From contig NZ_CP121017.1 in the NCBI RefSeq assembly GCF_041468085.1, positions 2,545,676 to 2,609,675 on the forward strand: 64,000 nucleotides of DNA, read 5' to 3'. The stretch is from Tistrella mobilis. GTDB taxonomy: Bacteria; Pseudomonadota; Alphaproteobacteria; Tistrellales; Tistrellaceae. Position numbers and translations under genes: made by a program. The notes beneath the pieces were generated by a model. That model saw only the letters and a list, made by a program, of their open reading frames with translations, had not been told where the DNA came from and made no database searches. Shown piece after piece: positions 61,543 to 64,000 of this stretch (position 1 is the first letter of the stretch; every line of letters begins with the position of its first letter).

Positions 61543-62835
61543 ATGCTCAAAACCTATTTCCAGCTCGATCAGCTCGGCACCACGGTCCGCCGGGAAGTCG
61601 TCGCAGGTGTGACGACCTTCCTGACCATGGCCTATATCATCTTCGTCAATCCGGTGATCCTCGCCAACACCGGCATGGATCAGGGTTCGGTTTTCGTCGC
61701 CACCTGCGTGGCGGCGGCGGTCGGCTCGCTGATCATGGGGCTTTATGCCAACTATCCCGTGGCGCTGGCACCGGGCATGGGCCTGAACGCCTTCTTCACC
61801 TTCACGGTCGTGATGGAGATGGGCTACACCTGGAATCAGGCTCTGGGCGCGGTCTTCATCTCGGGCGTGGTGTTCTTCATCCTGGCCCTGCTCAAGGTCC
61901 GGGAATACATCATCAACTCGATCCCGATGACGTTGAAGCTGTCGATTTCAGCGGGTATCGGTCTGTTCCTTGCGATCATCGCGCTCGAAAACGCCAAGGT
62001 CATCGTCGATCATCCGGCCACCCTGCTCACGCTGGGTGATATCGGCCAGCCGACCGTGCTGCTCGCCGCCCTGGGCTTTTTCGTGATCTGCGCCCTGCAC
62101 TATCGCAACATCACCGGCAGCATCATCATCGGCATCCTGCTAGTGACGATCCTGTCGATCCTGCTCGGCCTGAACCAGGCCCAGGGCATCGTCAGCGCTC
62201 CGCCCTCGATCGCACCGACCTTCTTCCAGCTGGATATCGCCGGCGCCCTTGAAGCCGGCATGTTCGGGGTGATTTTCGCCTTCCTGTTCGTCGACATGTT
62301 CGACACCGCGGGCACGCTGGTCGGCGTCGCCCACCGCGGCGGTCTGCTCGACAAGGACGGCAAGCTCCCGCGCATCGGCAAGGCCCTGCTCGCCGACAGC
62401 AGCGCCACCATGGTCGGCGCCGTCTTCGGCACCTCCACCGTCACCAGCTATATCGAAAGCGCCTCGGGCATCAATGCCGGCGGCCGCAGCGGCCTGACCG
62501 CAGTGGTCGTTGCGATCCTGTTCCTGGTCGCTCTGTTCTTCTCGCCGCTGGCAGGCTCGGTGCCGGCCTATGCCACCGCACCGGCCCTGCTCTTCGTGGC
62601 CCTGCTGATGGCACGCGGCCTGGCCGAACTCGACTGGGACGACATGACCGAGGTGGCGCCGGGCGTGCTGGCAGCCATCAGCATGCCGCTCACCTACTCG
62701 ATCGCCAACGGCATCGCCCTCGGCTTCATCTCCTATGCCGCGATCAAGCTGCTGGCCGGCCGGGCCCGCGAAGTTTCGATCGCCGTCTGGGTGCTGGCCG
62801 TGGTCTTCGTCCTCAAGTTTGCCTTTATCGGCTGA
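61543..62835 (+). CDS. AzgA-type purine (hypoxanthine/guanine/adenine) permease
   Basis: 430 aa from ATG 61543 with AGGAG upstream, matching AzgA family length. About 12-14 membrane helices. Signatures are MAYIIFVNPVIL, ALAPGMGLNAFFTF, VFAFLFVDMFDTAGTLVG-like FLFVDMFDTAGTLVG, and GTSTVTSYIESASGINAGGRSGLTA (in part). The family imports purine bases by proton symport. Monocistronic with its own terminator. Confidence 0.94.
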   Translation: MLKTYFQLDQLGTTVRREVVAGVTTFLTMAYIIFVNPVILANTGMDQGSVFVATCVAAAVGSLIMGLYANYPVALAPGMGLNAFFTFTVVMEMGYTWNQALGAVFISGVVFFILALLKVREYIINSIPMTLKLSISAGIGLFLAIIALENAKVIVDHPATLLTLGDIGQPTVLLAALGFFVICALHYRNITGSIIIGILLVTILSILLGLNQAQGIVSAPPSIAPTFFQLDIAGALEAGMFGVIFAFLFVDMFDTAGTLVGVAHRGGLLDKDGKLPRIGKALLADSSATMVGAVFGTSTVTSYIESASGINAGGRSGLTAVVVAILFLVALFFSPLAGSVPAYATAPALLFVALLMARGLAELDWDDMTEVAPGVLAAISMPLTYSIANGIALGFISYAAIKLLAGRAREVSIAVWVLAVVFVLKFAFIG

Positions 62836-62856
62836 GGCACTGATATCCCTTGAAAG

Positions 62857-62892
62857 AAGCGGCGACACAGCGTGATGTGTCGCCGCTTTTTT
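62857..62892 (+). terminator. Rho-independent terminator after the purine permease
   Basis: A 12-bp perfect stem (AAGCGGCGACAC 62857-62868 with GTGTCGCCGCTT 62877-62888), 8-nt loop and six Ts. Confidence 0.93.
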
Positions 62893-62982
62893 CGTCGCAC
62901 CCGCCCCTGTGCACCGCACCATCGCACGAGCGAGCCCTGTTCGAAGCTTACCGGAATTCCGCCCTTTTTGTAATGACCTGAC

Positions 62983-63020
62983 GATTTTTGCATTTTTTGC
63001 ACCGCACACATGCAAAAATC
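62983..63020. repeat. AT-rich inverted repeat upstream of the RNA promoter
   Basis: Perfect 11-bp arms GATTTTTGCAT (62983-62993) and ATGCAAAAATC (63010-63020) flank a 16-nt spacer. It lies just before a 14-bp palindrome and a promoter, so it may be a regulator site or UP-like element. Between the permease terminator and this point (62893-62982) nothing else is recognised. Confidence 0.65.
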
Positions 63021-63022
63021 TG

Positions 63023-63051
63023 GTGACGATCGTCACATTCCTGCGTACTCT
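63023..63051 (+). promoter_or_regulatory. Promoter overlapped by a CRP/FNR-like palindrome
   Basis: GTGACGATCGTCAC (63023-63036) is a perfect palindrome; with flanks it reads GGTGA-N6-TCACA, near the CRP-family consensus TGTGA-N6-TCACA. Its left half also gives a -35-like GTGACG (63023-63028), 17 bp from TACTCT (63046-63051). A regulator bound here would cover the -35, suggesting repression. Promoter and regulator are inferred. Confidence 0.55.
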
Positions 63052-63057
63052 CCCCTT

Positions 63058-63378
63058 GCCGACGTGAAGGGCACCGGCAATCAGAACCGGCCCAACGTCT
63101 AGGGAGGGTGTAACCGGCGAGAGCCGGAGGGATCGACCGCAAGAGCATCCGGTGGCCACGATGCCACCACGCCGGGTTCAGCACAGATCCGGCGCCAGGA
63201 GCCACGGCGGTCCCAGGAGAGTAAAGAGTTCCGACGTCCCGGCACAAACGATCGGGCCGTCCACAAAATAACAATGATAACAATCCACTGCGCCGATCGG
63301 TTGCCGTCGAATCGGACGTGGTGATCAGCACCAAGCGGAATCTTCGATCAAGGCCGTGCTCGCACGGTCTTTTTTTTT
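63058..63378 (+). ncRNA. Candidate structured non-coding RNA
   Basis: About 320 nt between an inferred promoter and a strong terminator, with no credible ORF. Visible stems are GACGT/ACGTC (63061-63065 with 63095-63099) enclosing a CCGG/CCGG helix; CCGGC-GAGA-GCCGG (63114-63127); GGTGGC/GCCACC (63151-63156 with 63163-63168); and CGATCGG/CCGATCG (63249-63255 with 63293-63299). The last closes a loop with two copies of ATAACAAT (63268-63275, 63277-63284), an A-rich unpaired stretch like Hfq/target-binding regions. It does not match tmRNA, RNase P, 4.5S RNA, or the riboswitch cores I know (B12, TPP, glycine, guanidine-I). A trans-acting sRNA is the best guess. The weak 36-codon frame at 63161-63271 has no ribosome site. 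Confidence 0.6.
63351..63378 (+). terminator. Strong Rho-independent terminator ending the candidate RNA
   Basis: An 8-bp stem (63351-63358 with 63363-63370, CCGTG-CTCG-CACGG core) followed by nine Ts. No plus-strand gene lies upstream of it after the permease terminator, so it must end a separate transcript. Confidence 0.92.
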
Positions 63379-63397
63379 GCGCGGCGACCATAACCGC

Positions 63398-64000
63398 TCA
63401 CCCCCTGTCGGAGCGGTGATCACGGCCGGCATATCGCTGGGGGGTGGTGCCGAGCATCCGCCGGAACATGGCCGTGAAGGCGCTCGGGCTGTCATAGCCA
63501 AGACGGGCGGCAACCGTGGCCACGGCCGTGCCCTGCGACAGCAGCGACACCGCCTCGACCAGCCGGGCCTGCTGGCGCCAGCGCAGGAAACCCATGCCGG
63601 TCTCACGCGCGAAGGCGCGGGCAAGCGTCCGGGTGCTGGCCCCGGCGCTTTCGGCCAACCGCTCAAAACCTGCATCCTCTCCGGGATCGTCCAGAACCCG
63701 CCGGCACAGACGCTGAAGCCGCGGATCGCGCGGCCAGGGCAAGTGGAGCGGCAGGGTCCGCGGCGCCTGGAGTTCATGAAGGATCAGCGCGGCCACCGCC
63801 TCGCCTCGGCTGCCGTCGGCGTAATCCACGGGCTCTGCCACCGCCGCCAGAATCAGCTCGCGCAGCAGGGTCGTGATCTCGATCACCGTACAGGCAGCAG
63901 GCAATCGCCTGGCCGGTTCGGGCGCCACATAGACCGTGCGCATGGACACGGGCCCGATCATCCGCACCGAATGCTCCACCCCGGGCGGCACCCACAGCCC
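63398..64000 (-). CDS. AraC family transcriptional regulator, C-terminal part
   Basis: The gene runs off the right edge; about 200 codons are visible, frame open to 64000. The visible start, GLWVPPGVEHSVRM, is the end of a cupin sensor domain. The C-terminus is a double helix-turn-helix AraC domain: FERLAESAGASTRTLARAFARETGMGFLRWRQQARL (in part) and VATVAARLGYDSPSAFTAMFRRMLGTTPQRY (in part). It resembles the YdeC/NimR-like single-gene AraC regulators with an adjacent exporter; the target is outside the window. Confidence 0.92.
   Translation of the reverse strand, partial: GLWVPPGVEHSVRMIGPVSMRTVYVAPEPARRLPAACTVIEITTLLRELILAAVAEPVDYADGSRGEAVAALILHELQAPRTLPLHLPWPRDPRLQRLCRRVLDDPGEDAGFERLAESAGASTRTLARAFARETGMGFLRWRQQARLVEAVSLLSQGTAVATVAARLGYDSPSAFTAMFRRMLGTTPQRYAGRDHRSDRG

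Follow-up and report, generated by a model that had tools for sequence, protein, structure and literature searches.

In the 64-kb window analysed here (the whole stretch of Tistrella DNA under study), the stop codon of a purine permease gene at 62835 and that of a convergent AraC-type gene at 63398 enclose a gap of about 560 bp, as had been stated in the preliminary description of this DNA. The permease is followed by a hairpin and T-run of its own (about 62853-62895), so that a second intrinsic terminator, at 63350-63378 on the + strand, is claimed by no listed gene, in agreement with the earlier claim of a nine-T terminator outside any protein gene; it is strong and intact, with a 9-bp hairpin at 63350-63371 and T9 at 63370-63378, and has 97% identity to the other Tistrella species. 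The sequence that it closes, 63058-63379, is present in three of three Tistrella genomes at 92% identity, and conservation in relatives, whose absence had been named beforehand as an argument against an RNA, is therefore found. Identity rises to 100% across the three genomes at 63037-63057 and is 95% in the other species over 62980-63022, whereas the flanks 62836-62939 and 63380-63430 show 56-59% identity to the window in the same comparison, so that the conserved block spans promoter to terminator. Deletions of 4 nt and 1 nt between species within this block rule out a long reading frame. On sequence grounds, 63058-63379 (+ strand, about 322 nt) is a stand-alone, non-coding, structured RNA gene.

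The folding of 63058-63379 has a z-score of -2.9 and that of 63051-63379 one of -3.6, each surpassing 100 of 100 dinucleotide shuffles. The consensus fold on the + strand begins with a 5' hairpin (63061-63099) and includes a branched structured domain (63129-63214); between the two stands a GNRA-tetraloop hairpin (63114-63127), the GAGA hairpin of the preliminary description, in which the tetraloop reads GCAA in the other two species. Both tetraloops fit GNRA when read on the + strand and neither does on the minus strand, an indication of a + strand RNA. A covariation check, also proposed earlier, returned one compensatory pair among the three sequences; covariation is almost absent because only three closely related genomes were available, which is too little for support to be claimed from it. 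Further downstream, the arms 63245-63255 and 63293-63303 bound a loop of exactly 37 nt, and the tandem repeat that had been described there is real, with ATAACAAT present at 63268-63275 and again at 63277-63284. This part of the loop reads AAU AAC AAU GAU AAC AAU (63267-63284, + strand), in which five of six triplets are of the A-R-N form. In Escherichia coli, the distal face of Hfq binds sites made of such triplets, and the segment is a candidate for binding of this kind, in a loop predicted to be open: the mean unpaired probability of 63265-63286 is 0.86, and a pattern as rich in triplets occurs at 3 of 127,964 positions in the window, both strands counted. Five of six triplets are found in two species, while in one species there are at most four, at least one triplet having been lost. 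An hfq gene is encoded in the Tistrella genomes. Inside the A-rich loop there is also a 16-codon ATG frame (63274-63324), kept in three of three species and not accompanied by a Shine-Dalgarno sequence.

When Rfam was searched at gathering and at permissive thresholds, no family reached its cut-off at the locus, and the earlier impression that no known RNA family is represented holds; weak matches to Atu_C4 and SorY were confined to the 3' terminator end and were rejected. The genome comparison consisted of the three Tistrella genomes and then a class-wide sample, with no relatives between genus and class level. BLAST over 385 alphaproteobacterial genomes returned no homologues outside Tistrella, only scattered chance matches of 20-50 nt, and a class-wide search with a covariance model of the 5' domain gave two 30-bit matches, no more than expected by chance, both of them inside coding genes, which we take to be leuD-like and hemB-like. 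An exact-pattern scan of GTDB contigs found T. mobilis KA081020-065 only, and a plasmid collection held no match to the RNA. Of the proposal of a new sRNA class in Rhodospirillales, what can be kept is that this lineage has a new sRNA gene that had not been annotated. This much is well supported by where conservation begins and ends, by the terminator and the fold, by the change of the tetraloop from one GNRA sequence to another, and by the absence of any Rfam match. The Rhodospirillales-wide scope is too broad: among the genomes sampled, only those of Tistrella have the RNA, and NCBI now assigns the genus to Geminicoccales. In the literature searched, no report of this RNA or of any Tistrella sRNA was found, nor any paper mentioning both Tistrella and small RNA.

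Transcription of the RNA would start near 63058. The invariant region 63037-63057 (+ strand) has the features of a core promoter, with a -10-like TACTCT at 63046-63051, and the -35 region is overlapped by a palindrome, GTGACG-AT-CGTCAC (63023-63036), whose half-sites are kept between species while the spacer changes from AT to GA. The palindrome, in the general form GTGACG-NN-CGTCAC, occurs at one or two sites per genome and may be a second operator; no regulator could be matched to it. Of the promoter proposed earlier at 63023-63051, the complete identity of 63037-63057 speaks in favour, but a sigma-70 scan of the region detected no consensus -35/-10 match, the proposed -35 element is half of the palindrome, and TACTCT is a poor -10. 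Further upstream, an inverted repeat GATTTTTGCAT / ATGCAAAAATC (62983-63020) surrounds a PhaR (AniA)-type operator, ATTTTTTGCACCGCACACATG, at 62992-63012. A weight matrix built from Sinorhizobium meliloti sites bound by PhaR in EMSA (training mean 22.6 bits, minimum 14.2; PMC12542648) gives this site 20.5 bits, the best score in the 64-kb window, where the next is 12.4, and 18.3 bits in the other species; about 1e-4 sites of such strength are expected per 120 nt promoter at the local composition. The site has one mismatch to the published PhaR consensus, and since plain consensus matches with one mismatch are not rare in the window (3 found against 3.8 expected), the operator argument is carried by the weight matrix. 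The operator is centred about 56 nt ahead of the predicted start, a distance that falls among those of the phasin sites in S. meliloti (table 3, PMC12542648). A second, weaker PhaR-like site with the core TGCACCGCA is located at 62904-62924 (9.7 bits in the window, 14.1 bits in the two other species).

The genome encodes PhaR itself (PF07879, 103 bits), and two phasin promoters, used as positive controls, score 26.5 + 22.0 bits and 22.0 bits, while the promoter of a third phasin gene in the same genome has no PhaR-type site. The first of these promoters (L073, 1263-1344) carries its two strong sites as phaP1 and phaP2 of S. meliloti do. With a phaR gene in the genome and a promoter site resembling those bound by PhaR, the RNA can be placed provisionally in the PhaR regulon. 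The PhaR (AniA) protein of S. meliloti, which granules of PHB titrate, binds the mmgR promoter and represses the gene (PMC12542648).

In each Tistrella genome, a second place matches 63073-63107 at 86%. There, about 1.2 Mb away from the locus, the opposite strand carries an array of three short units, each composed of a hairpin, GUUUCCUCCCUAGAC and a terminator. In the two genomes tested, RF00519 identifies them as three tandem alphaR8/MmgR genes, with 60-68 bits where the cut-off is 41. The genes are read from the minus strand whereas the matching sequence is that of the plus strand, and the RNA of the window is therefore antisense to alphaR8. Almost every alphaproteobacterium has alphaR8 (MmgR) sRNAs (PMC12559287), and in Sinorhizobium they hold back PHB storage. 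The Tistrella array (L005, 1249-1846, minus strand; G000:C4:3801090-3801687) is situated between phenylalanine-4-hydroxylase-like and transglycosylase-like genes. PhaR-type sites were found upstream of the alphaR8 copies as well, one strong and two weaker (20.8, 14.5 and 14.0 bits), and in copies 1 and 3 a PhaR-like site stands about 17-39 nt ahead of the start of the family match. Elsewhere in the genome, a sub-threshold RF00519 match of 35 bits (L013, about 1501-1577; G000:C4:1339918-1339994, minus strand) contains CCUCCCUGUCAGACUU, further GUCUCCC motifs and a strong terminator, and could be a fourth anti-Shine-Dalgarno sRNA.

The antisense segment of the window RNA, 63066-63108 (+ strand), is made up of the 5' hairpin and the following UCUAGGGAGG, and is complementary to the functional core and the terminator of all three alphaR8 sRNAs, which are encoded elsewhere in the genome. 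It includes a 12-bp seed, in which 63097-63108 (GUCUAGGGAGGG) pairs with UCCUCCCUAGAC of the sRNA core through 11 Watson-Crick pairs and one G-U; in the 10-mer UUUCCUCCCU, CCUCCCU is fully paired, the adjacent U is paired by G-U and the first two U are left unpaired, and the pairing extends 3'. When alphaR8 copy 2 was used as BLAST probe, the locus was the only non-alphaR8 match below E = 1 in each of the three genomes, in antisense orientation (E = 0.0014, 0.06 and 0.06, the next match being at about 4.8); chance matches of such size occur in about one genome in seven, and the strength of the result is in the position of the match. With the 45-nt core plus terminator of each copy taken as target, the duplex of 63066-63110 has energies of -53.1, -58.4 and -55.6 kcal/mol for copies 1, 2 and 3, ranks first for each copy among about 6,400 overlapping segments of the 64-kb window (both strands), and is reached by none of 1000 dinucleotide shuffles of the RNA (z = -4.8, -7.0 and -7.3). 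A full-length duplex computation was set aside, as duplexfold disregards self-structure over long loops. Once self-structure is taken into account, pairing still brings a net gain of -16 to -26 kcal/mol, where the shuffled sponge brings about -7 +/- 3 (and equals the real one in 0, 0 and 1 of 200); with alphaR8 shuffled instead, the competition-corrected energy is attained in 12, 1 and 20 of 200 cases, a less striking result, to which the loss of the terminator hairpin on shuffling contributes. The fold of the RNA itself partly occludes the pairing region, the core having a mean unpaired probability of 0.48, or of 0.25 with a start at 63051. The loop of the 5' hairpin, CAAUCAG, is complementary to the alphaR8 terminator loop; it reads CAATCAG in the DNA of the window's species, where it matches best copies 2 and 3, and CAGACAG in the other two, where it matches best copy 1, whose own loop reads GTCTG in these two species. 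A co-change of the RNA and alphaR8 copy 1 is suggestive and rests on one event.

The preliminary description recognised the RNA but offered no function for it, having missed both the alphaR8/MmgR antisense match and the PhaR-type operator. With these added, 63058-63379 (+) is probably the gene of a stand-alone sponge of the alphaR8/MmgR sRNAs, helped by Hfq and under the PHB-sensing repressor PhaR; by gene content, both RNAs and Hfq are encoded in the same genome, which agrees with a sponge of the proteobacterial Hfq-dependent type. Among the other readings, the one that survives best, although it is unlikely, is that of an ordinary mRNA-targeting Tistrella sRNA unrelated to alphaR8, whose antisense stretch arose by chance. 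It takes account of the length of the RNA, 322 nt being long for a sponge and mostly devoid of alphaR8 complementarity (the pairing accounts for the first 50 nt only), and the candidate Hfq motifs would fit any trans-acting sRNA; chance, however, would have had to produce the only non-alphaR8 match to the probe in three whole genomes, a duplex energy unmatched by any shuffle, and an antisense segment, retained in every species, whose target is precisely the functional core. The RNA may also have a dual role, as a sponge and as a regulator of mRNAs.

It is distinctly improbable that the minus strand is a degenerate or diverged fourth alphaR8 gene, the similarity on the + strand being merely its complement. 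The minus strand does follow the alphaR8 order, in that one hairpin precedes CCUCCCUAGAC and a second, whose loop is AUUG or UCUG, comes after it, but RF00519 finds no minus-strand match at the locus even at E up to 10, the second minus-strand hairpin is not followed by a T-run whereas the terminator on the + strand is conserved and includes T9, the change from GAGA to GCAA remains GNRA on the + strand only, and the operator and the conserved upstream region are on the + side. An inverted alphaR8 copy may nonetheless be the ancestor of the + strand RNA. It is very improbable that the block is an intergenic element conserved without being transcribed, or the remnant of a decayed gene: the promoter is weak by consensus, but the limits of conservation are sharp at promoter and terminator, the terminator is strong, the fold stable and the operator conserved. 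Least probable of all is a cis-acting leader, an attenuator or a small-ORF mRNA, as no + strand gene lies downstream, the next gene being convergent, the 16-codon frame, whose retention in the three species is the argument in favour, lacks a Shine-Dalgarno sequence, and longer frames are broken by the deletions between species.

In the sponge mechanism that is proposed here, each of the three tandem alphaR8 sRNAs would be bound at its CCUCCCUAGAC core and its terminator hairpin by the 5' hairpin and the following UCUAGGGAGGG of the sponge. Pairing would probably start from a loop-loop contact and the 12-bp seed, with Hfq assisting via the A-rich loop and the U-tail. Pairing in the cell would mask the anti-Shine-Dalgarno core and open the alphaR8 terminator hairpin, it may speed decay, and the target mRNAs of alphaR8 would be freed. 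Transcription of the sponge would be controlled by PhaR (AniA), bound to the operator centred near -56, which would tie it, like the phasin genes, to the carbon-storage state of the cell. The alphaR8 genes may be under PhaR as well, so that the sponge may work as a threshold or a delay and not as a simple switch; if PhaR represses alphaR8 too, both partners would rise together, with a net effect that is not obvious. More tentatively, and as a serious possibility that falls short of a probable one, these elements may form a new PHB-sensing circuit, in which PhaR, titrated by the storage polymer, governs the phasins and the alphaR8 sRNAs together with a dedicated sponge, specific to the lineage, whose pairing targets are the core and terminator of alphaR8. 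Such a circuit would link the amount of stored polymer directly to the activity of a global anti-Shine-Dalgarno sRNA family, and its three parts, PhaR, alphaR8 and the sponge, make it a testable prediction. It would also imply two or more separate origins of alphaR8 sponges, one in Caulobacter and one in Tistrella, the latter possibly by inversion of an alphaR8 copy, and that sponging is a recurrent part of alphaR8 control.

Three known systems can be compared with the Tistrella RNA. MmgR/alphaR8 (RF00519, "suhB") is its proposed partner and not its family: the minus strand of its 5' domain resembles part of alphaR8, but at the locus there is no RF00519 match of at least 41 bits on either strand, and the RNA is the complement, is four times longer and has a separate terminator, located on the other strand. 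In Vibrio, QrrX, as cited in PMC12559287, is similarly one sponge acting on several sibling sRNAs, and differs in the sRNA family, the bacterial class and the regulator. The closest parallel is CrfA of Caulobacter crescentus (2025), the only antagonist RNA of alphaR8 found in the literature, which sponges the alphaR8 sRNAs SisA-D and thereby relieves their targets (PMC12559287). CrfA and the Tistrella RNA are alike in being independent non-coding genes with a G/A-rich segment directed against the CCUCCC core common to all alphaR8 copies, in having several sibling sRNAs as partners, and in belonging to a context of carbon metabolism and to a genome with Hfq. By contrast, the pairing of the Tistrella RNA extends through the stem and loop of the alphaR8 terminator and leaves out part of the UUU of UUUCCUCCCU, the RNA is of about 322 nt with several domains, and its upstream region includes a PhaR-type operator, where CrfA is switched on by carbon starvation via an unknown regulator. 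The two RNAs may be unrelated, and their likeness, compared by description, would be one of mode of action.
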